Assembly (NCBI GenBank): GCA_900556255.1
Contig: USNZ01000015.1
Span: forward strand, 1-11,955
Origin: an uncultured Oscillospiraceae bacterium
Lineage (GTDB): Bacteria > Bacillota > Clostridia > Oscillospirales > Ruminococcaceae
DNA: 11,955 nucleotides
Reading direction: 5' to 3'
Of this stretch, positions 2,886 to 11,912 are shown piece by piece (the stretch's first letter is position 1; each line of letters opens with the position of its first letter). Under the pieces are notes generated by a model. It was given only the letters and a program-made list of their open reading frames with translations, made no database searches and was not told where the DNA came from. The translations under genes and the position numbers were made by a program.

Positions 2886-3617
2886 TTATTTTTTCACCGC
2901 ATCCACCAGTTTGGCTACCACCAAATAGCGTGTGTCGGATTCGCCGGTGCAGGTGGAGAGGGTCAGAATGTGGTCGGTCAGGTTCAGCGTTTCCCCGTTG
3001 TCCAGCGTATTGCGCGCGGCTGCCTTTGCCAGAATCTGCGCGAAGGCCGCATCATCCGGGTTCGGCTCGATGCAGTCCCGGTCATCCGCCGCACTGCACA
3101 CCCCGGCGCTGACAACGCGGTAGGTCAGGGCAGCGTCGGGCAGCGAGAGATAAATGTAAGGATGTTCTTCGGCAAAGCTGTCCTGCTCGTAATTGTGCAG
3201 CGCCTTGAACCCGCCCTCATAGCCGTCCTCGAAGGTGTGGCCGTAGAGCACAAGGTTGCGGGAAAGGCTGGTGCTGTTCAAATCACACGCATAGTCGGCA
3301 AAAACGCAGCCGTGGACATCGGCATTGCCCGCGGTGTCGCGGCGCAGGTAATAGTCGTTGTCGGACGCCTGCTGCACCGGGGCATCGATGTTGGTGCCGG
3401 GCACGGTGATCCACGCGCCGGTTTCCGTGTTGTCCTCCTGCGCCAGACGCGGCTCCGGCTGGGACACCGTGACGGACAGCGCCCTTTCCACACGCTGTTC
3501 TGCCAGCGCTGTGCGGTTGTGCCAAAGGCAAAACAAAACGGCGCACAGGACAATGCCTGCCGCCGCACACCAAAGGAAAATTTTCCGCTTGTCTACGTTC
3601 TTCCTTTTGCTTTGCAT
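2886..3617 (-). CDS. Class B sortase
   Basis: A 243-residue membrane-bound transpeptidase. Residues 12-32 form an N-terminal membrane anchor after a Lys/Arg-rich start, and the catalytic domain lies outside. Catalytic residues are visible: His127 in NLVLYGHTF, Cys223 in TLSTC, and Arg230 in SDTRYLVVAKL. The YGHTF and TLSTC contexts, the YxYLSLPD segment and the length fit class B rather than A or C. Sortases cleave a sorting motif and join the new carboxyl end to a cell-wall amine or another subunit. The start at 3617 has GGAAGGTGA four nucleotides upstream, and the gene begins 16 nt after the stop of the FPQTG-ending protein. It is the last gene of the operon. Its natural substrate is unclear, because no visible neighbour carries a full sorting signal. 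Confidence 0.93.
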   Translation of the reverse strand: MQSKRKNVDKRKIFLWCAAAGIVLCAVLFCLWHNRTALAEQRVERALSVTVSQPEPRLAQEDNTETGAWITVPGTNIDAPVQQASDNDYYLRRDTAGNADVHGCVFADYACDLNSTSLSRNLVLYGHTFEDGYEGGFKALHNYEQDSFAEEHPYIYLSLPDAALTYRVVSAGVCSAADDRDCIEPNPDDAAFAQILAKAAARNTLDNGETLNLTDHILTLSTCTGESDTRYLVVAKLVDAVKK

Positions 3618-3633
3618 CTGCTCACCTTCCCGA

Positions 3634-4737
3634 TCACCTTTCCGGGATGCCCGTCTGCGGGAAGTATCTGACCAGCACCGTGGGCGCGCTTTCCTGCGCG
3701 GCGGTCAGCGTCCAGTCCACATAGCCGAGCAACCCCTGCAATTCCTCCGGCATATTCTGGTCAAGCGTCAGCGTCAGGTTCAGGTGGGCCGTGCCGGTTC
3801 CGCTGTAACGTCCCAGCGGCAAATCATTGCGCATGGTGTTGGTGTCGGTGTCCAGATTGCCCCACACGGGGCCGCTGTATAGGGTTTCGTTGTCCGGGCC
3901 AGTCACCGTAATCACAGCATATTGTTTGAGCAGCTTCCAGATTTTTTCCTCAGTTTCTGCACCCAGTTTGTTGTTGTCCGCCAATGCGGCGCGAAGCCAC
4001 AGCGAACACGCGGCATCGGAATCGTTGCGGGCTGTATAGTCGATGGCAACCAACTGGCTGCGGGTCTCACCGGGGCAAAGATTCTGGAAATCCAAAAACA
4101 GCTGCCCGTCCGGGTATTCGATCAGCCCACCATTCTCATCGTAGGTAAAGCGAATATGCGCCGTCTGCGTCTTGGCCGCCACTGCGTCCGGTGTACGGCG
4201 GTAGGCCGACCAGGTGCGTCCCCACAGCGTGGGGCTGTCGCCGCTGGCCTGCAACAGCTCCATCGTCACCCCAATGTGCCCGGTGCGGCCCGCCAACTCG
4301 TTTGTCAGATTCGGGGAAACCGTGAAAGATTCAAACAGCGCCGTACTGCATTGGTTCGGTTCCACAATGTCGTTGTAGTACCAGTAGCCGTCCTCGCCCT
4401 GCGTCCAGTCGGCGGTGTTATAGGCGGGGAACACGCAATCGGTGGCGTCCATGTCTGCCGCTGTTTCGTCATCCCAATCAATCACCACTTTGGCCCGCAC
4501 AAGGGAGCTGGCTGTGCCGGTATTTTTCACCCAGACGCACTTTTCGACCGTCTGCCCCGGCGTGATCGTCTGCCCCTGCTCGTATTTTTCCTCGACGATG
4601 CCCTGCACTGTGGCAGTGGAAATGTGGTTGGTCACGGTGCTTGACGTGCGCCAGCCCGCCAGCGTTCCGCCCGCGCACAGCGCCGCCGCCAGGGCCAGTG
4701 CTGCCGCGCCAAGCCCGATTTTTACCTGTTTTTTCAA
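3634..4737 (-). CDS. BsaA/TasA-like SipW-dependent surface protein with C-terminal FPQTG
   Basis: A 367-residue secreted protein. The N-terminus (KKQVKIG, a hydrophobic stretch to about residue 24, then GGTLAGWRTSSTVTNHIS) matches the signal region of TasA/CalY/BsaA-type proteins cut by SipW. The body is beta-rich, with VKNTG and a segment YNTADW…GYWYYNDIVEPNQCSTALFESFTVS that parallels the small protein at 9036-9533. It ends RYFPQTGIPER: an LPXTG-like motif with only four residues after it, and no hydrophobic span or charged tail. The start is set at TTG 4737 because GGGAGG (4746-4751) sits 8 nt upstream and because this gives a normal signal peptide. An in-frame ATG at 4788 would overlap the previous gene by 32 nt and add 17 charged residues. 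It is probably a fibre subunit or the sortase substrate; this is inferred. Confidence 0.83.
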   Translation of the reverse strand: MKKQVKIGLGAAALALAAALCAGGTLAGWRTSSTVTNHISTATVQGIVEEKYEQGQTITPGQTVEKCVWVKNTGTASSLVRAKVVIDWDDETAADMDATDCVFPAYNTADWTQGEDGYWYYNDIVEPNQCSTALFESFTVSPNLTNELAGRTGHIGVTMELLQASGDSPTLWGRTWSAYRRTPDAVAAKTQTAHIRFTYDENGGLIEYPDGQLFLDFQNLCPGETRSQLVAIDYTARNDSDAACSLWLRAALADNNKLGAETEEKIWKLLKQYAVITVTGPDNETLYSGPVWGNLDTDTNTMRNDLPLGRYSGTGTAHLNLTLTLDQNMPEELQGLLGYVDWTLTAAQESAPTVLVRYFPQTGIPER

Positions 4738-4745
4738 ATTATCGT

Positions 4746-4751
4746 CCTCCC
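4746..4751 (-). promoter_or_regulatory. Ribosome binding site fixing the TTG start at 4737
   Basis: GGGAGG on the minus strand lies 8 nt before TTG 4737. The alternative ATG at 4788 lies inside the preceding gene. This site decides the start of the FPQTG-ending protein. Confidence 0.7.
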
Positions 4752-4756
4752 ATTCT

Positions 4757-7700
4757 TTATGAATTATCCTGCTTCGGGGTAATTTCATTCACGATCAGCG
4801 CGCAGTCGCGGTCCTCCGCCCAGCTTTGGCGCACATTCCGCGCCGTCACGCTGGCCGATGCGCGGCAGCCGGTCAGTTCCAGCACCGCACAGTCGGCTTT
4901 CGCCGTGCCGTTCTCGGCATCCTCAAACTGCACCAGTGCATGGCAGGCGGTCTGGCTCTCGATGACGGTGTAAACGCCGCCCGAAAGCCCCGTGAAGGTC
5001 ACACTGGCGCAGACATCGCCGTTCTCGTCCGGCTCGGCATCGAGCGAAAGCTGCACACTCTGCCGCTGCACCCGGCCCTTGGCGTCCGTCAGCGTGAACG
5101 TAAACACCGGCGCGCCGTGCGCGGCCAGCAGATCGGATGCGGGCAGCTTCTTGGTCACGGTGATCTTGCCCGGCTCGACGTTCGTTGTCACTTCATCGGT
5201 CGGCAGAGTAATTTTATCCTCGCGGTACTGCACCGACGCCCTGTTGCTCACGGAGTTGCCCATGACAACCGATTGCACCCGCACCGTGAAGGAAACTCTT
5301 GCTTCCGACTGCGTGGGAATTTCCAGCGTCCATACAATCTTTCCGTTGTTTTCCGCGCCGTTCTCCGTGATGGAATTTTCCACCAACTCGGTTCCTTCGG
5401 GGATTGCATCGGTGATCGTCACGGTCTTTGCCACGTCGGCCGGATTGCAGCACGTCACGGTGTACACCAGCGTATCCCCGGCCCGCACCGTGCCGCCATT
5501 CAGGTCGTTTCCCGCTTCATCCATCACGGTCTTGGTCGGCGCGTCTACCGGCACATACACCGCCTTGACGGTGTGGTCAGCGTCGATGTCCGCAAACTCA
5601 ATATTCTGCGGGTATTTTTTCGCCAGATTGTTCTGCATTTTTTCGGCATCCTCGTCCAGATAGATGCCACTCAAAAGGTAATTGCCGCTTGCCAGCGGGG
5701 CATATGTCACTGCTCGGCTCTCTCCCAAAGGTACTTCGCTTTCCGTTTTGGTCTGGGTCGTCCCGTCGCTTTCGCTCGTTATGTTGTCGGATACCGCCTG
5801 CCCAATGTCCGGCGTCCCGTTCACCGCAATGGCCTTCAGGGTAAAATTGATCCTCTTCCACTGTGCGGTAAAGGTCGTGTCATAGTCGTTGGCGTAGGAA
5901 GTTCCCGCAGCCAGCAGACCGTCTGTCAGGGCGGTTTCGCCGTTCCAACTCTGCGTGGCCTTCCAGCCAAGGAAGCGGTAGCCCTCCTTCTGCGGTTCGG
6001 CCTGCACGGTGTAACCCTGGCCGTTGTGCTTGGTTTCGGAAAAGCCGTTCTGCGCGCCGTTCAGCGTTCCGCCGTCCAGATCGTAGGTCATGGCAGCCTG
6101 CCAGCCCGCATAATACGAAAGAACGGCAGGCTCCGCTGTTACGGTTTTGTGGTTGCCATAGCTGCCCAAAATGCTGCCGCCGTCGTCGTTTATCGTAATA
6201 TCCTGCAAGGCTGCGCCGCCTTGCAGTGTCGTCACGCCGTCCGCGTAGGTTTTGGCGTCCAGCAGCCAATCCGCAAAGCAGTGGGTCTGCACGGCGGCGC
6301 TGTGCCCGGCATTCGCTGAACAAATGTAGTAGGGCGCGGTATCGTCCACATCGGTCGGTGCCGTCACATCCGCCGTGATGCCGTAGAACTTGCGCACTGT
6401 GCCCAGCAGTTCCCCGCTGTCGATGCCGTCCACGGTCAGCGCGGTGCCCGCCGCAGCGTCGTGATTGTAATAATAGCGATAATTCGATTTGTAGGACAAC
6501 CAAACATCATGCGCGTCGGAGTTTTTCATGCCGAAATAGGCGTCCTCAATAGCGGTATAGTATACGTTGGTGTCAATTCCGTTCTCCGGGTGCTGCTCCG
6601 CCGTCTGGGCGTTGTTGGATTCCCGGCTATTTTCCCAATCCAGCACCGCCGTGTCCGACTGGATGATCGTCCGCCCCAGCCACGGGTTCTCGCAGGTCAC
6701 GCCAAGCTGTTCCCGTGTTCCGCCGTTCCAGGTGACAACGTCCGCATCCTGTTTCAGATGGATGCTGTCACCGGCGGGAATCTGCAATGTTGAATCGGTG
6801 CGGAACACATCGACGCCGTCCAGCATCACCGCGATGCGCAGGCCGGAATTTTGCAGGGTTTTGTCGGCGGAAGTTTTCACTTCGACGCCGTCCTTGAGTG
6901 TCGTGTCTGTTCCGCTTCCCGCGTAGATTTCCGCGTGTTCCGCGCCGTTTTCGGTAAAACTGCCGCCGGATACCGTTGCCTTGGTTCCACCTTTCAGGTA
7001 CAGCCCGCTGTGGCCGTTTTCGTGCGATGTGACCGGCGCGGTCAGTTCAAGCGTTGCCGTCTGGTCCAGCGATTCATTTTTCATCGCGCTGATGCCGGAA
7101 TAGCTGTTGCCGTAGCAGTTCAGGTGATCGCCCTGCACAGTGCCGCCGTCCGTGTGGACGCCGTCCGCGGCGTTATTGTACACGGCGGTCGTTTCGTCGC
7201 CGTTCGCGGAATCCGCGGCCTTGCCGATCCACAGTTGCCCCTGGGTGTAAACGCCGTTGATCCCGTTTGCGTAGATATGGTTCCAGCCGTACAAATAAGT
7301 CTTGCTGTCAGGGTAGCACTGCACGCCGTTGCCCGCATTGTTCAAAATACCGCAATGGCTGATTTTCATCGTGCCTGCGCCTTGTACGTCCAAGCCGGGG
7401 AAGGTGTTGGAAGCGGTGTCCCCGTCTGTCGTCAGGAGATTGGCGGTGTTGTAGCCGTTGTTCTCCACCTGGCAGCCGGTCAGGGTCATAACGCTGTTCG
7501 AGCGCACATTTGCGCCCGTCCAGCCGTTGCCCCAGAAGAAGCAGTTTTCCGCGCTGGCGGAGCTGTCGGCTTCGGGGATGTCAAAGCCGGAGGTTTTGTT
7601 CCACACAAAAGAGCTGGCCGCTGCCTGCACATGGGAACCGGCGGCACAGGTCAGCCCACCGCCGCCAAGGCCCTGTGAGCGCACATTGCCGGAAAGAACA

Positions 7701-8644
7701 GCCGAACCGTTCTCAAAGCGATACAGCGCGGTTCCGTCGCCCGCATATTCGCCATTGTTGAACACCAGCGAGCCATTGATCTCGGCCTGGCCGGGGTTCA
7801 GCAGAATACCGTTGTCGTTTCCGTAACCCACGGTACAGTTTTGCAGGCTGATTTTGCTGTCTGTGCCTTCGGTGTAAACGACGTTCTCGCAGTTGTTATT
7901 GCCATTGAGGAAGACGTTCTCAATTTCCAGCGTCGTGCCGCCGGAAATATAAATCATAACGTTGTCATGGTCGGTCTGTACACCGCTGGCGTCGCCCATC
8001 CGCAGGCTGGCGTTTTGGGTGTAGGTGTAGCCCTGCGCAACGGTTTCACTGCCCACGCCGACGGTGTTGGTGTATTGGGCACTCCCGGTGCCGACCAGAC
8101 GCAGATTTTTGCTGACGGACAGCACCTCGTCCAGTGGGATGGTGATCTCGCCGGAAAGATAGATCGTAGCGCCATTTGCGGCAGAGGCGACAGCGGATTT
8201 CAGCTCTGTCCAGCTTGTGACGGCATCTTGGGCGGAGGTACCGGATGCGTCGTAGAGAGAGACTTCCTCAACGGCGAGATCATTGGAAAAGGCGCTTACT
8301 TCAGCGGGAATTTCCGCGTTGGAATCGCTGTCGGTTTCTTTATTTTCCGTCAGTTCGCTTGATTCGGCACTTTCCGGCGTTGCGTCGGAAAGCGCCGTGC
8401 TTTCATCCTGTGTCGATACAGGCGTTGGTGTCGGGGTAGTTGATGCTTGGTTTTCCGCCTGATCCTTTGTGCTGTCACCTTCCGCAATATCCGCTTCAGC
8501 GATGCCGCTCCACTCGTCAGCAACAAATTTTCCCTGCGTTCCTTGTGCCAGCACGGCAGTCGCCATACCGAACAACAGCAAAGCGGCCAGCCCTGCTGCC
8601 GCCAAAGACAGCAGCGGTTTGTTCTTTTCTTTCGCTTTTCTCAT
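4757..8644 (-). CDS. Giant beta-helix surface protein (putative adhesin), 1295 aa
   Basis: A secreted protein with several domains. Residues 1-34 are a signal peptide (KEKNK, hydrophobic core, VLAQG). Residues 35-135 are a Ser/Thr/Glu-rich linker with TPTPTP. Residues ~140-575 look like a right-handed parallel beta-helix: irregular ~20-25-residue coils rich in Asn and Gly, such as ISLQNCTVGYGNDNGILL. A mixed region follows. Residues ~850-930 are an InlB/Flg_new-type repeat (MTYDLDGGTLNG…YRFLGW…FTAQW). Residues ~1030-1140 are a DUF11-like domain (GDTLVYTVTCCNPA…ITDAIPEGTEL). Residues ~1155-1275 are a Cna-B-like domain (ITVTKKLP…FTFTLTDAKG). There is no C-terminal sorting motif or membrane anchor; it ends NEITPKQDNS. 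ATG 8644 overlaps the SipW stop as ATGA, with AAGGAG upstream. Probably a fibre-tip or matrix adhesin; no enzyme activity is evident. Confidence 0.85.
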   Translation of the reverse strand: MRKAKEKNKPLLSLAAAGLAALLLFGMATAVLAQGTQGKFVADEWSGIAEADIAEGDSTKDQAENQASTTPTPTPVSTQDESTALSDATPESAESSELTENKETDSDSNAEIPAEVSAFSNDLAVEEVSLYDASGTSAQDAVTSWTELKSAVASAANGATIYLSGEITIPLDEVLSVSKNLRLVGTGSAQYTNTVGVGSETVAQGYTYTQNASLRMGDASGVQTDHDNVMIYISGGTTLEIENVFLNGNNNCENVVYTEGTDSKISLQNCTVGYGNDNGILLNPGQAEINGSLVFNNGEYAGDGTALYRFENGSAVLSGNVRSQGLGGGGLTCAAGSHVQAAASSFVWNKTSGFDIPEADSSASAENCFFWGNGWTGANVRSNSVMTLTGCQVENNGYNTANLLTTDGDTASNTFPGLDVQGAGTMKISHCGILNNAGNGVQCYPDSKTYLYGWNHIYANGINGVYTQGQLWIGKAADSANGDETTAVYNNAADGVHTDGGTVQGDHLNCYGNSYSGISAMKNESLDQTATLELTAPVTSHENGHSGLYLKGGTKATVSGGSFTENGAEHAEIYAGSGTDTTLKDGVEVKTSADKTLQNSGLRIAVMLDGVDVFRTDSTLQIPAGDSIHLKQDADVVTWNGGTREQLGVTCENPWLGRTIIQSDTAVLDWENSRESNNAQTAEQHPENGIDTNVYYTAIEDAYFGMKNSDAHDVWLSYKSNYRYYYNHDAAAGTALTVDGIDSGELLGTVRKFYGITADVTAPTDVDDTAPYYICSANAGHSAAVQTHCFADWLLDAKTYADGVTTLQGGAALQDITINDDGGSILGSYGNHKTVTAEPAVLSYYAGWQAAMTYDLDGGTLNGAQNGFSETKHNGQGYTVQAEPQKEGYRFLGWKATQSWNGETALTDGLLAAGTSYANDYDTTFTAQWKRINFTLKAIAVNGTPDIGQAVSDNITSESDGTTQTKTESEVPLGESRAVTYAPLASGNYLLSGIYLDEDAEKMQNNLAKKYPQNIEFADIDADHTVKAVYVPVDAPTKTVMDEAGNDLNGGTVRAGDTLVYTVTCCNPADVAKTVTITDAIPEGTELVENSITENGAENNGKIVWTLEIPTQSEARVSFTVRVQSVVMGNSVSNRASVQYREDKITLPTDEVTTNVEPGKITVTKKLPASDLLAAHGAPVFTFTLTDAKGRVQRQSVQLSLDAEPDENGDVCASVTFTGLSGGVYTVIESQTACHALVQFEDAENGTAKADCAVLELTGCRASASVTARNVRQSWAEDRDCALIVNEITPKQDNS

Positions 8645-9042
8645 GCAAAACTCCTTTTTGTGTCATTCAGAATTTTGACCGGATATCCCATCCAGGGCAG
8701 GCACAACTGCACCCTCCCAACGATGTTCTCCGCCGTGACAGGTGTATCTGCCACGTTGTTTGTCAGTCCCTGCGTCGTGACCGTCCGAGCCGCCTGGTCG
8801 ATGGCGACGATTCTGTGCGTTACCGTGCCGCCCGCTGTCTTGTAGGTAATGTCCTGCCCGACTTTCAGTTCGTCAAACGACATCGGCACAACGACAAGCA
8901 AGCTGCCCACGGGCAATACAGGCTCCATGGAGCCTGTCAGCACGGCGTAACAGCGGATACCGCTGACGGAAATCAGCACGGCGGCAGCAATCGCGGCGGC
9001 AAAGATCAGCGGCCCTGCCGCTTTCATCGGTTTTTTCACCAC
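8641..9042 (-). CDS. sipW: SipW-type signal peptidase I (Ser-His)
   Basis: A 133-residue membrane protease that removes signal peptides from TasA/CalY/BsaA-type proteins. It has one N-terminal membrane span (residues 9-29). The nucleophile is Ser38 in LTGSMEPVLPVGS, and His76 in GTVTHRIV stands where ordinary bacterial signal peptidases have Lys. This marks the ER/archaeal-like subfamily that includes SipW. Later conserved pieces are TTQGLTNNVADTPV (Asp99) and NIVGRV. Many SipW proteins have a second, C-terminal membrane span, but this one stops at DTKRSFA without it. The start is GTG 9042, with AGGAGG (9050-9055) 7 nt upstream; a second GTG follows at 9039. It overlaps the previous gene and, through ATGA, the giant surface protein. 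Its likely substrates are encoded on both sides. Confidence 0.92.
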   Translation of the reverse strand: MVKKPMKAAGPLIFAAAIAAAVLISVSGIRCYAVLTGSMEPVLPVGSLLVVVPMSFDELKVGQDITYKTAGGTVTHRIVAIDQAARTVTTQGLTNNVADTPVTAENIVGRVQLCLPWMGYPVKILNDTKRSFA

Positions 9043-9533
9043 GTTCCGCCCTCCTGAACCGCTTCAAAGTAGACGCTGAGGGTGTAATGATTCAGCGCCG
9101 TAGCGTCCGCGCTCTCGCTGTATGTCACAGTATCGAACAGCGCGTCATTGCGGCAATCTTCTCCCGGCTGCAAAGTTTTGGCGTAATACCAGAAATCCTC
9201 CGTTTCGTCGTAGCGCCAGTTTTCGGTGTTGTAGTTGAGGGTACAGGCATCCTGTGCCGCGCTATCTGAGAAAATCACGCGGGCGCGAAGACGCAGCGGA
9301 AGGTTGCCGGTGTTCACCACATACGGGCGCTTCATGAACGAATTGCCCGGCTGCACCGGAACATCCGGGTTCTGAATGTCCTCTTTCGGGTCAAATGTCA
9401 CCTCACCGACCGTGAGGGTGTTGGTGCGCGATGCTTGGGCAATAAAATAAGCGCCTGTGACGCCGACCAGACAAACTGTCAGGGCCAGCGCCGCAAGCGC
9501 GGCGAACAAGATATTCTTTTTTGCTTTGCTCAA
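9036..9533 (-). CDS. Short TasA/CalY-like SipW-dependent protein
   Basis: A 165-residue secreted protein. The signal region (KAKKN, hydrophobic residues 8-25, GVTGAYFIAQASRTNTLTVG) has the form recognised by SipW. The mature part is one beta-sandwich-like unit with YVVNTGNLPLRLRARVIF and YNTENW…DFWYYAKTLQPGEDCRNDALFDTVTYS. The latter lines up with a segment of the FPQTG-ending protein. The start is TTG 9533, overlapping the previous stop as TTGA. A strong AAAGGAGG lies 10 nt upstream, so the start is likely reached by coupled translation. It could be a minor fibre subunit, an adaptor, or an assembly protein like B. subtilis TapA; length and sequence do not decide among these. Confidence 0.8.
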   Translation of the reverse strand: MSKAKKNILFAALAALALTVCLVGVTGAYFIAQASRTNTLTVGEVTFDPKEDIQNPDVPVQPGNSFMKRPYVVNTGNLPLRLRARVIFSDSAAQDACTLNYNTENWRYDETEDFWYYAKTLQPGEDCRNDALFDTVTYSESADATALNHYTLSVYFEAVQEGGTW

Positions 9534-10228
9534 GATTCAGCAACCTCCTTTCCCATGACGGCGGCCCACACATCCTGCGGGGTGTTGGCGTCGGCCACAT
9601 AGTCGCTTTGGATGGCGGTCAAGCGGCAAATAATATCTACCGCCGTGCCCTGCGGCAAATCGCCCTCCACCACGTTCGCATAGGTCACGCAGTCAAACAG
9701 CGGCGGCGTCTGTGCGCCGGGCGCAATGGCGGATTCATACGCATAGATGAATGTGTGGGTTTCCTCCGTTTCAGTTTCTTCCAGCAGGCTCCAGCCGTCG
9801 TTGGGCTGAAAACTGACCAGATCGACCGTGTGCGGTTCGCCGCCATTGTCCAGAACGCCCGCCCCGCTGGTCGGCTCCTGATTTGTTTCGTCGCTTCCGT
9901 CTGCTTTGGCGGTTTCTGCAATCGTATAAGTTCTCACGCTGGCGCGGGGAATCTCGACTTGCAGGTACATATAGGCTGCGGTCGTGCTTTCCGCCGCGTT
10001 GCAGGCCGTGGGGTCTTTGGCTACCGTCTTGCCGGGGTACAGCACCTTCGCTTCATCCGGCAGCTTGTCCCACTCTGGCTCGGTCAGTTCTGCCTCCAGC
10101 TGACCGACCGCGAACGTGTTGACGGTTTGCGGCGTCTGGTGCGTCAGGTAAGCCCCCGTCCCGGCCACTGCGCCCAAAACGGCAATCGTTGTGACAGCGC
10201 ATAGGGCAATGATGTGTTTTTGTTTCAT
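9530..10228 (-). CDS. TasA/CalY-like SipW-dependent fibre protein
   Basis: A 232-residue secreted protein and the first gene of the operon. Residues 1-40 give the diagnostic SipW-dependent signal pattern: KQKH, hydrophobic 6-22, GTGAYLTHQTPQTVNTFAVG. A family-typical LTEPEWD follows at 48-54 and YPGKTVAKDP soon after. Further on are AAYMYLQVEIPR and the segment THTFIYAYESAIAPGAQTPPLFDCVTYAN, which has the same W/FD.VTY framework as the other two paralogues here. TasA-type proteins build extracellular fibres in biofilms and are trimmed by the partner SipW, which is encoded two genes on. ATG 10228 has AAGGAG 7 nt upstream; a longer in-frame TTG start at 10288 has no such support. Confidence 0.86.
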   Translation of the reverse strand: MKQKHIIALCAVTTIAVLGAVAGTGAYLTHQTPQTVNTFAVGQLEAELTEPEWDKLPDEAKVLYPGKTVAKDPTACNAAESTTAAYMYLQVEIPRASVRTYTIAETAKADGSDETNQEPTSGAGVLDNGGEPHTVDLVSFQPNDGWSLLEETETEETHTFIYAYESAIAPGAQTPPLFDCVTYANVVEGDLPQGTAVDIICRLTAIQSDYVADANTPQDVWAAVMGKEVAES

Positions 10229-10296: not shown

Positions 10297-10317
10297 ATCA
10301 CCCCCCCAAAAAAAAAA
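10297..10317. repeat. Double homopolymer tract C7A10 (minus strand: T10 G7 TGAT) upstream of the fibre operon
   Basis: Seven C residues (10301-10307) are followed by ten A residues (10308-10317). On the minus strand this reads T10 G7 TGATG, about 70 bp before the first fibre gene. The tract at 626-646 has the same layout, and both share an outer GSC-TTTTTCTT flank. It is prone to slippage in vivo and during sequencing. Confidence 0.8.
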
Positions 10318-10327
10318 TGAAGTAAAG

Positions 10328-10369
10328 AAAAAGGCGAGCGGCTTCCCTTACGAGAGCTTGGCGCTAGCC
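10328..10369 (-). terminator. Possible minus-strand terminator hairpin in the divergent region
   Basis: On the minus strand GGCTAGCG (10362-10369) pairs with CGCTCGCC (10333-10340) at 7 of 8 positions around a 21-nt loop, followed directly by TTTTT. It would stop transcription heading left from the abi side and insulate the fibre operon. One mismatch and a long loop make it tentative. Confidence 0.3.
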
Positions 10370-10397
10370 TTCGACTTTCTGGCACGGTATAATCAAC

Positions 10398-10425
10398 TTG
10401 ATTTTGTCGCTTTTTGAGTTATAAT
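10398..10425 (+). promoter_or_regulatory. Sigma-A-type promoter of the structured RNA and abi gene
   Basis: TTGATT (10398-10403) and a perfect TATAAT (10420-10425) are 16 nt apart in an AT-rich stretch. Transcription would start near 10432, just before the structured leader. A second TATAAT at 10388-10393 lacks a partner -35 box. Confidence 0.7.
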
Positions 10426-10435
10426 TAAAAATAAA

Positions 10436-10550
10436 GAGCTAGGGAGGCTCTGATTAAATCTGGTGTGCGGCACGGCGGATGGCGTGCGATAGACGGCGTG
10501 ATATGCGCCAAGCCCTCAGGGCACGATTTATTCAGAGGTTTCCTAGTAGT
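10436..10550 (+). ncRNA. Structured RNA upstream of Abi_2 gene (abiF-RNA-like)
   Basis: Arms at 10439-10460 and 10525-10546 (22 nt each) can pair along their whole length with two G-U pairs and only two mismatches. They enclose three hairpins: GCACG/CGTGC (10470-10474 with 10483-10487), GGCGT/GCGCC (10495-10499 with 10505-10509) and GCCC/GGGC (10512-10515 with 10519-10522). A promoter lies just upstream and the Abi_2 start codon 31 nt downstream. Conserved structured RNAs (the abiF RNA motif) are known next to Abi_2 genes and have been described as RNA antitoxins of HEPN toxins; both points are from memory. Membership in that RNA family is inferred from position and fold and was not tested against the covariance model. 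It could instead be a regulatory 5' UTR. Confidence 0.6.
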
Positions 10551-10577
10551 CGTAAAAGTGCAATGAAGGGAGTCCAA

Positions 10578-11516
10578 ATGGCAAATCGCCCAAAATTAAC
10601 AATAGAGGATCAAGTGGCGTATATGAAAAACAAAGGGATTACCTTTGACCACTGTTCTGAAAAAGATGCCGTGCGTTTTTTGCAGGAAAGCACATACTTC
10701 TTTAAGGTTAAAGCGTTCGATAAAAATTACATTGCTCATCCAAAGACCGGGCATTATTATAATTTGGACTTTTCTTATCTCATGGAGCTTTCAACCTTAG
10801 ATATGCGCTTGCGAAGGCTTATTTTACACGCAACTTTAGATATTGAACATTTCCTAAAAGTACAACTGATTCGAGATGTAAGTTCAAATCCGGTTGAGGA
10901 TGGCTATCAAATTGTCGAAAAGTTCTTTTCTGAAAATTCCAGCGTAAAAAATTCCATCAGTGAAAAATCGAAGAATTCCATGTGCAAGGATCTTGTGGAA
11001 AAGCTGGAAAGTGAAAATTATGCGATTTGGAATTTGATTGAAGTCCTCTCCTTTGGTGACTTTGTGCGGCTCTATACCTTGTATGATAGGGAGTATGGGA
11101 ATCACAATAAAGGGCTCATTCAATGCCTTTATGCCGTAAGGTGCCTCCGGAATGCAGCTGCCCATAACAACTGCTTATTAAATAGTTTAAGGTTGCCCTA
11201 TACGCGTAAGATTCACTCCTCCTATTCCATCAGCCGCGCTGTGAGTCAAATTCCCAACGGACCAAAGACAACATCCCGCGAAAAAAAGCTGGCCAATCCG
11301 GTGATTCATGATTTTGTCGCAATGCTGTATGTATACAAGAAAATTGTATCTTCGCCCCGCACAGCAGAGCATTTCACAAAGGAATTGCACGATTTATTCG
11401 ACATTCGTATGAAACGGCATAGCAACTATTTCGAATCAAATGAGTGCATATCATCTGCCTATCACTTTATGAAAACTGTGATTAATGATTGGTTTCCATC
11501 AGGCCAGGAGTTATGA
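10578..11516 (+). CDS. Abi_2 family HEPN protein (AbiD/AbiF-like abortive infection)
   Basis: A 312-residue cytosolic protein. Family features in order are LTIEDQVAYMKNKGITF (7-23), YFFKVKAF (40-47), STLDMRLRRLILHATLDIEHFLKVQL (72-97), WNLIEVLSFGDFVRLYTLY (151-169) and RNAAAHNN (191-198). The last holds the HEPN RNase motif R-N-x3-H (Arg191, Asn192, His196). Abi_2 proteins stop phage spread by shutting down the infected cell, and related HEPN proteins cleave RNA. ATG 10578 is chosen because GGGAG lies 5 nt upstream and the family starts here; an open frame reaching back to 10479 crosses the structured leader and reads as Arg-rich nonsense. The gene is clearly more AT-rich than the operon to its left, suggesting a separate origin. 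It faces away from the fibre operon. Confidence 0.92.
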   Translation: MANRPKLTIEDQVAYMKNKGITFDHCSEKDAVRFLQESTYFFKVKAFDKNYIAHPKTGHYYNLDFSYLMELSTLDMRLRRLILHATLDIEHFLKVQLIRDVSSNPVEDGYQIVEKFFSENSSVKNSISEKSKNSMCKDLVEKLESENYAIWNLIEVLSFGDFVRLYTLYDREYGNHNKGLIQCLYAVRCLRNAAAHNNCLLNSLRLPYTRKIHSSYSISRAVSQIPNGPKTTSREKKLANPVIHDFVAMLYVYKKIVSSPRTAEHFTKELHDLFDIRMKRHSNYFESNECISSAYHFMKTVINDWFPSGQEL

Positions 11517-11542
11517 ATCTATATTTGTGGTTGAAAAATCCA

Positions 11543-11581
11543 TTGACATCCCGATTGGAATTGAGGTATCCTATTAAGGAT
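11543..11581 (+). promoter_or_regulatory. Candidate promoter overlapping an inverted repeat
   Basis: TTGACA (11543-11548) is a perfect -35 box, 18 nt from TATCCT (11567-11572), a 4-of-6 match to the -10 box. ATCCT-ATTA-AGGAT (11568-11581) overlaps the -10 position and could be an operator. A transcript from here would be only about 60 nt before the terminator. Confidence 0.4.
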
Positions 11582-11584
11582 GAA

Positions 11585-11604
11585 CAAAAACAGGTCACTG
11601 TTTT
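11585..11604 (+). other. Hairpin 5' of the terminator
   Basis: AAAAACAG-GTCA-CTGTTTTT is a perfect 8-bp inverted repeat with a 4-nt loop, A-rich on one side and T-rich on the other. It directly precedes the strong terminator and may act with it, or form the body of a short RNA. Confidence 0.5.
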
Positions 11605-11608
11605 TAGA

Positions 11609-11640
11609 GGGCTGGTGCACGCACCAGCCCTTATTTTTAT
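11609..11640 (+). terminator. Strong intrinsic terminator downstream of abi
   Basis: GGGCTGGTG (11609-11617) pairs perfectly with CACCAGCCC (11622-11630) around a CACG loop, followed by TTATTTTTAT. It lies about 90 nt after the abi stop codon and would end the abi transcript, as well as any short RNA begun at the 11543-11572 promoter. Confidence 0.85.
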
Positions 11641-11912
11641 CCTTATCTAAGCATAGCTGAGTCCCTTGGTAAAATATTATAAAGGCAGCGCCGCAATAAG
11701 CGTATTGTTACCCTTATAAAAAGGCGGATTTCCATAGCTTCGTTGGCTGGTCAAACATTAACCTCATATCGTTGGCCTGCAGGGATATTTGCAAAGCAGG
11801 GAAGTGTCGCAAATTGGCCTTCAGGACTCCTTTGCCGAAAGAACCGCATTGGAATATATCGTATCAACAAATTATTTTGACGGATACTTTGCCTTAACCT
11901 GATACACTACGC

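Follow-up and report, generated by a model that had tools for sequence, protein, structure and literature searches.

Introduction

AbiF-RNA pairs, in which an Abi_2 family HEPN protein is encoded beside a small RNA, are the proposed ancestors of Cas13. The closest described example is AbiF-RCd22 from the C. difficile prophage phi027. AbiF-Cd (R202/H207) is toxic, and its small structured RNA, which has a SigA promoter and a terminator of its own, neutralises it in cis and in trans via direct binding (PMC12373285). RCd22 lies upstream of the toxin gene, is co-transcribed with it by read-through, and contains two motifs of the Rfam abiF family, RF03085 (PMC12373285). A second pair, PbAbiF-AbiFr (PDB 8vz6), is covered in a review (PMC12737573) and serves, together with AbiF-Cd, as the basis of the mechanism proposed below.

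Here, we analyze an 11,955-nt stretch of DNA from an uncultured Oscillospiraceae bacterium (the window; contig USNZ01000015.1), which encodes an Abi_2 HEPN protein. We consider it highly probable that this gene is one half of an AbiF-type cassette of toxin and RNA, that the other half is an RNA antitoxin encoded downstream, and that the folded leader upstream is a repeat resembling a miniature inverted-repeat transposable element (MITE). In contrast to AbiF-RCd22, the RNA lies downstream of the gene, is built of two unlike hairpins, and falls into no Rfam family above threshold. A second RNA architecture, linked to the toxin in many Bacillota and with weaker matches in Campylobacterota, would give an independent view of how a HEPN toxin came to need an RNA.

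An Abi_2/AbiF protein in the window

A preliminary description of this DNA, made from its letters alone, had named an Abi_2 protein with an R-N-x3-H motif, and this holds. The 312-aa open reading frame (ORF) matches Pfam Abi_2 (E 4.7e-21, 76.4 bits against a cut-off of 25.6) and the PADLOC AbiD profile (E 1.3e-26), and its motif, R191-N-A-A-A-H196, is invariant in 32/32 aligned homologues, a selection out of 120 listed. The gene belongs to the Abi_2/AbiF family. Its product has the AbiF fold by structure prediction, with PDB 8vz6 as the nearest solved relative; the family profile, searched against PDB sequences, returned two designed proteins only (E 0.6-0.8), and a BFVD fold search gave no match at E<=0.001. 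The protein is a putative RNase toxin, probably dimeric. A second in-frame ATG lies at 10479, inside the leader palindrome, while most of the 32 aligned homologues begin near 10578.

For comparison, we assembled 97 related Abi_2 loci (80 bacterial, the best 80 of 115, and 17 on viral contigs), whose proteins are 31-66% identical to that of the window in the best segment. The nearest relative in this set, L003, comes from a Gemmiger metagenome-assembled genome, and its bacterial family was sampled as 297 genomes. Covariance searches around Abi_2 covered 98 sources and 753,639 bp.

A conserved structured RNA downstream of Abi_2 genes

The 3' flanks of most of these Abi_2 genes share one arrangement, in which a sigma-70 promoter precedes GAACAAAAAC-loop-GTTTTT, and a short linker leads on to a GC-rich hairpin followed by a U-tract. 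A covariance model built from 18 such downstream elements with the window excluded (R1) matched the window at 11578-11640 with 68.5 bits (E 3.2e-12), the next best match in the window reaching 14.1 bits. Across the 98 sources, R1 found 67 matches at E<=0.1, one in each source and always on the same strand as the gene, including all 27 loci from L003 to L029. After re-training on these 67 matches, window included, the resulting model (R2) gave 83 matches at E<=1. All but one of these were single matches in the 3' flank of their source (82), and the remaining one lay antisense to a genuine match. The RNA begins 15-143 nt past the end of the protein match, and this end does not coincide with the stop codon in every case. 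In Campylobacterota, the matches (L037, L046, L050 and L053) are weak, with R2 E-values of 0.17-0.43.

This RNA shows covariation. In an R1-fitted alignment of the 67 RNAs (A4), 92.8% of the pairing cells can pair, compared to 73.3% in shuffles; 218 cells carry two-sided changes, compared to 68.5; and covariation is 0.587, as against 0.233 in shuffles (equalled in 0/500) and 0.039-0.144 when the partners are slid. A plain MAFFT alignment of 40 RNAs recovered stem 2 unaided, with two-sided changes in 11/11 pairs, and missed stem 1 because its variable length was left unaligned by MAFFT. Taken stem by stem, two-sided changes occur in 10/10 pairs of stem 2 and in 4/8 pairs of stem 1, where the core A-U pairs are near-fixed: three of them (columns 10-12) are kept in 56-58 of the 58 distinct RNAs. 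Judged from the alignment, this suggests a constraint on the letters themselves, beyond pairing. The fold is also more stable than that of shuffled sequence, with z-scores from -2.96 to -6.58 across 16 RNAs chosen from 82, and -5.82 in the window.

Most copies appear to have a promoter of their own. A motif script found the element in 78/98 sources; dropping 9 misplaced ones left 69 rows, or 61 distinct loci. At 47 of these 61, TTGACA, a spacer of 16-18 nt and TATAAT, set 12-15 nt before the A-run, agree with the consensus in at least 10 of 12 positions, where dinucleotide shuffles predict 0.4. In the window, TTGACA-18-TATCCT scores 10/12. These promoters bear on a simpler account of the element, namely that it is a mere terminator of the Abi_2 mRNA, retained because the whole cassette is transferred together. 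Stem 2 and the U-tract do fit the terminator pattern, but a promoter stands ahead of the element at most loci scored, a second A-rich/U-rich stem with its mostly kept GAACAAAA start would be superfluous for a terminator, and intact copies occur beside tRNA genes that have no Abi_2 gene with them (see below). We therefore find this account unlikely.

The same features could belong to a regulator that never touches the protein, for example a small RNA (sRNA) with the Abi_2 mRNA or a host molecule as its target. Its own promoter and compact, stable structure would suit such a role. However, the protein’s nearest solved relative (PDB 8vz6) binds a noncoding RNA directly, as does AbiF-Cd (PMC12373285), and the loops are short, with no long fixed single-stranded seed seen in them. 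A direct partner of the toxin thus seems the better description of the downstream RNA, and an sRNA of this sort is about as doubtful as a bare terminator.

Guidance of the toxin by its RNA had also been suggested. A Cas13-type guide RNA carries a variable guide segment of about 20-30 nt. No variable guide segment was seen in the downstream RNA in two further alignments (A2 and A5), where the stems pair internally and the loops are short, leaving a guide role unsupported.

The preliminary description had pointed to the abiF RNA of Rfam. Over the whole window, Rfam gave no match at E<=1. At E<=10, the region of the leader (10300-10700) had two weak unrelated matches alone, and the region of the downstream RNA (11500-11700) had sub-threshold matches to unrelated families and none to RF03085. 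At the 16 loci scanned, no Rfam family scored above its gathering score at the downstream RNA. Likewise, RF03085 was above cut-off in 0/31 genomes with this Abi_2 clade (150 candidates scored per genome), and of five weak sub-cut-off matches none coincides with the downstream RNA by contig and position. The two RNAs are alike in being small, tied to Abi_2 genes and found also in phages (for RF03085, an sRNA of cyanophage S-CREM1; PMC9964418), but the covariance model of RF03085 has no match in the window. BLAST with the downstream RNA found none in phages and one 27-nt match to a plasmid record at E 0.1. Titles and abstracts in the literature yielded no downstream Abi_2 RNA, although it is possible that it was described earlier in the Cell 2025 or Weinberg 2017 papers.

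Variants and other small RNAs occur near these genes. At L031, L033, L034, L036, L039, L045 and L047, whose records are all titled Lachnospiraceae, Lachnoclostridium or Enterocloster, the 3' flank of Abi_2 holds a variant RNA whose second hairpin differs (ACTAGGGCGGTGCGTGCA...AAACTAGATTTGAGCTT, varying slightly). At L005, an Rfam DUF3800-VIII RNA (5010-5074, + strand) follows soon after the Abi_2 gene and its RNA; it is an element separate from the downstream RNA, so that two unlike small RNAs stand in series. At L117 (1501-1538, + strand), one of the five weak RF03085 matches, a sub-threshold RF03085-like RNA follows a TATAAT box, with no Abi_2-like ORF adjoining it by reading; the same contig also has two copies of the downstream RNA.

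Specificity of the downstream RNA

In 33 Abi_2-bearing genomes, R1 gave 35 matches at E<=0.01, of which 33 were known Abi_2 loci (26 identified by sequence and 7 by contig coordinates). One of the other two lies beside an Abi_2 remnant (L192), and the other (L191, 37.1 bits), inside an unrelated coding gene, is a false positive. A wider search of 341 genomes of the class gave 15 matches in 14 genomes; as it scored 15 candidates per genome under strict filters, it is no census, for which the covariance model nevertheless provides the means. R1 matches below about 40 bits mean little and call for care.

Several observations weigh against a cassette with a downstream antitoxin. Just 1/15 matches in the class sample, the L003 locus, has Abi_2 in the fetched DNA; the remainder are two strong orphans (L141 and L142, 66.9 and 58.6 bits) and 12 matches at <=41.4 bits with no Abi_2 in the fetched DNA. 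Among the 98 sources, 16 gave no downstream RNA match even with R2, two of them under a caveat (L079 with 2 nt of flank, L064 with a truncated protein match), and near-identical copies are included, such that the 67 matched RNAs amount to 58 distinct ones. Fitting A4 to R1 favours the structure. For pairs with two-sided changes, the count of 14/18 (11.4 in shuffles) was reached in 8/500 shuffles. In the window, the -10 box matches at just 4/6 positions, and a scan of this window alone gives as many promoters as chance would. Taken alone, stem 2 with its U-tract would be an ordinary terminator. Lastly, the published C. difficile AbiF has its RNA upstream and of another family, RF03085 (PMC12373285).

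Orphan copies, remnants and phages

Some copies of the RNA stand apart from a toxin gene. At L192 (6519-6705, + strand), an intact RNA (53.0 bits) comes after an Abi_2 fragment that is broken but keeps the RNAAAH box (E 2.4e-8); a complete Abi_2-RNA cassette lies about 6 kb away on that contig. The orphan at L141 is preceded by a 20-residue Abi_2-like tail, a weak match (E 0.12), and going by this tail may be a remnant of the same type. At L142 (1501-1565, - strand), in a bacterial genome with no Abi_2 profile match, the orphan RNA lies 17 nt past a tRNA-Trp gene, with a phage regulatory gene (Phage_pRha) about 1 kb away.

Other copies are found on viral contigs. A pattern scan returned 5 records, to which two further patterns added no extra orphan, and all five match R1 with 47-72 bits. 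One, L158, is the contig of L084 and carries its Abi_2 gene; in the other four, no Abi_2 was found in the fetched DNA or in the whole records, the whole-record search being one without its own positive control. In three of these four, the RNA meets a tRNA-Pro gene with a 1-3 nt overlap: L156 (4282-4346, - strand), L157 (1913-1976, + strand) and L159 (7656-7719, - strand). As the RNAs and flanks are similar and two come from one metagenome, the three may reflect a single event. Phage genes on L159 and L156 encode a portal, a terminase, an exonuclease and a head maturation protease, and stem 2 of L157 is almost identical to stem 2 of L022 and L026 (Eubacterium and Lachnospiraceae). In the fourth record, L155 (1430-6644), the orphan RNA (5136-5196) is near an integrase gene, with a reverse transcriptase gene on the same stretch and no tRNA gene near the RNA.

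An antitoxin and its theft could leave such traces as an RNA outliving its toxin and phage copies next to tRNA genes; from these contigs, some phages seem to carry copies of the RNA, perhaps as decoys. There is precedent in the pseudo-ToxI of phage PhiTE, a phage-borne RNA that mimics the bacterial RNA antitoxin of the type III system ToxIN (PMC3475682), and in the RF03085 sRNA of cyanophage S-CREM1 (PMC9964418). Compared with pseudo-ToxI, the toxin and RNA are other ones, each phage copy stands singly, a tRNA gene adjoins three of the four, and the decoy function is putative. We give roughly even weight to the fuller proposal that this RNA is a class of its own, unknown to Rfam, which acts as antitoxin for HEPN toxins of the AbiF type and is encoded downstream with its own promoter, and that phages carry it as a decoy, partly beside tRNA genes, where tRNA-processing enzymes could excise the RNA and so neutralise the host’s Abi_2 toxin. 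Such orphans would make a directly testable counter-defence, and decoys would be the surprise.

The leader palindrome

In the preliminary description, the RNA partner was sought upstream, in the leader of the Abi_2 gene. Its general placing of the protein, as an Abi_2 HEPN protein that has an RNA antitoxin and is linked to Cas13, agrees with the homology, the predicted fold and published accounts of AbiF (PMC12373285, PMC12737573), but the choice of the leader as that RNA was probably wrong. The fold itself is real: a long stem around 64 nt with three hairpins, whose arms (10438-10460 and 10525-10547) are 23 nt long with 21 pairs and two mismatches, rather than 22 nt. It has a minimum free energy of -56.3 kcal/mol (z -3.77), and 0/200 shuffles are as stable. 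A promoter had been noted as well, and TTGATT-16-TATAAT does agree with the consensus at 10/12 positions, but 3 such sites were found in the window scan where 3.0 are expected by chance.

Its stable fold and its upstream placement, like that of RCd22 in C. difficile (PMC12373285), would favour the leader (10438-10547) as antitoxin or guide of the protein. However, BLAST of the element against the 97 related Abi_2 loci gave nothing at E<=0.01, and covariance support for the long stem is missing in the sense that these loci offer no counterpart to compare. The 145 nt before the start codon have a median fold z of -0.05 at the 94/97 loci scored; 5/94 fall below -3, which indicates that folded leaders arise singly, without being a family trait. 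As the abiF family of Rfam has no match there either, and both ends of the palindrome resemble dispersed repeats elsewhere, we judge it very improbable that the leader is the antitoxin. It was rejected on the comparison of the 97 loci and the repeat search.

The repeat search gave weak matches to the leader element at E<=0.01 in 9/297 genomes of the family of the Gemmiger genome. In one genome (G292), at L113 and L114, both leader ends are matched in the right order, with 86% identity over 29 nt and 79-80% over 42-45 nt, in spans of 202 and 184 bp. The outer ends of L114 read TAGGGAAGTGCTGATTAAATCTGGTGCGC... and ...GCCAAGCCGTTAGGCGCGATTTAATCAGCGCTTCCCTA, those of the window CTAGGGAGGCTCTGATTAAATCTGGTGTGC... 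and ...GCCAAGCCCTCAGGGCACGATTTATTCAGAGGTTTCCTAG. TA, which could be a target-site duplication but which a TA-ending inverted repeat would also yield, stands at both outer ends in each. By tblastn, 0/27 loci matching the leader element or the L114 repeat (one of the 27 viral) have an Abi_2 gene. Scored against 100 shuffles in 26 repeat loci (L114 and L120 being one place, and the 3' arm scored without shuffles), the window’s 5' arm was above the best shuffle in 11, tied in 1 and below in 14. The exact arms at the window’s spacing occur in 0/297 family genomes, and the claim of a repeat thus rests on similar, not identical, ends. In viral contigs, the exact-arm pattern hit two unrelated stretches and a looser one-arm pattern one stretch, none of them a copy; BLAST of the element against plasmids and phages gave no match, and a literature search on the repeat found nothing.

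Composite palindromic repeats of ~180-200 bp occur at L113, L114 (the same as L120), L121, L122 and L126. With two candidates scored per genome, parts of the L114 element match in 40/297 family genomes at E<=1e-4; many of these matches are the inner core alone, without the outer arms.

The inner core of the L114 repeat is missing from the window copy, and by its ends the leader palindrome looks like a related, shorter member of this composite family. It shares with MITE-like palindromic repeats its short length, terminal inverted repeats, occurrence in several copies per genome and lack of coding capacity of its own (the ORF entering from ATG 10479 is unmatched in most homologues); its core is shorter than in the ~180-200-bp copies. 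Most likely, it came between promoter and gene by insertion as a MITE-like repeat and does not serve as the antitoxin. The name MITE is tentative. A transposon-like leader palindrome can evidently pass for a regulatory RNA.

A model for the cassette

By analogy, the Abi_2 gene and its downstream RNA most likely work like the described AbiF-RNA pairs, with an RNA class absent from Rfam. An RNA of ~64 nt (11578-11641) would be transcribed from a promoter of its own directly after the gene, and a terminator of its own would end it. As in AbiF-Cd and PbAbiF-AbiFr, it would bind the HEPN dimer and keep the RNase toxin off. Infection that halts transcription or degrades RNA would cut off the RNA supply and free the toxin. 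Toxin and RNA have apparently separate promoters, unlike in C. difficile, so that the ratio between them would depend on two promoters, and the leader palindrome may damp the toxin further. Phage copies, in turn, may be cut out by tRNA-processing enzymes.

Feature coordinates and neighboring genes

Coordinates of the cassette, its leader and the downstream RNA in the window are collected in Table 1.

Table 1. Features of the Abi_2 locus (positions in the window).
Feature	Position	Strand	Basis
Promoter-like site TTGATT-16-TATAAT, Abi_2 mRNA	10398..10425	+	10/12 matches; count equals chance
Imperfect palindrome, MITE-like dispersed repeat, Abi_2 leader	10438..10547	.	Fold z -3.77; ends like dispersed repeats
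Probable ribosome-binding site aagggag	10566..10572	+	Sequence reading
Abi_2 / AbiD-F family HEPN protein, putative RNase toxin, 312 aa	10578..11516	+	ATG 10578, stop at 11516
R-N-x3-H motif codons (R191-H196)	11148..11165	+	RNAAAH kept in 32/32 aligned homologues
Downstream RNA promoter TTGACA-18-TATCCT	11543..11572	+	10/12 matches; arrangement common at related loci
Downstream non-coding RNA, proposed antitoxin of Abi_2	11578..11641	+	Covariance-model match, covariation, conserved position
Stem 1, A-rich/U-rich (AAAAACAG / CTGTTTTT)	11586..11605	+	Model alignment; two-sided changes in 4/8 pairs
Stem 2, GC-rich hairpin; with following U-tract also intrinsic terminator	11607..11632	+	Two-sided changes in 10/10 pairs

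Elsewhere in the window, the - strand from 2886 to 10228 encodes a sortase and a beta-helix surface protein, with sub-cut-off matches to a signal peptidase and camelysin. An actin-like gene (1649-2611) adjoins this sortase cluster.
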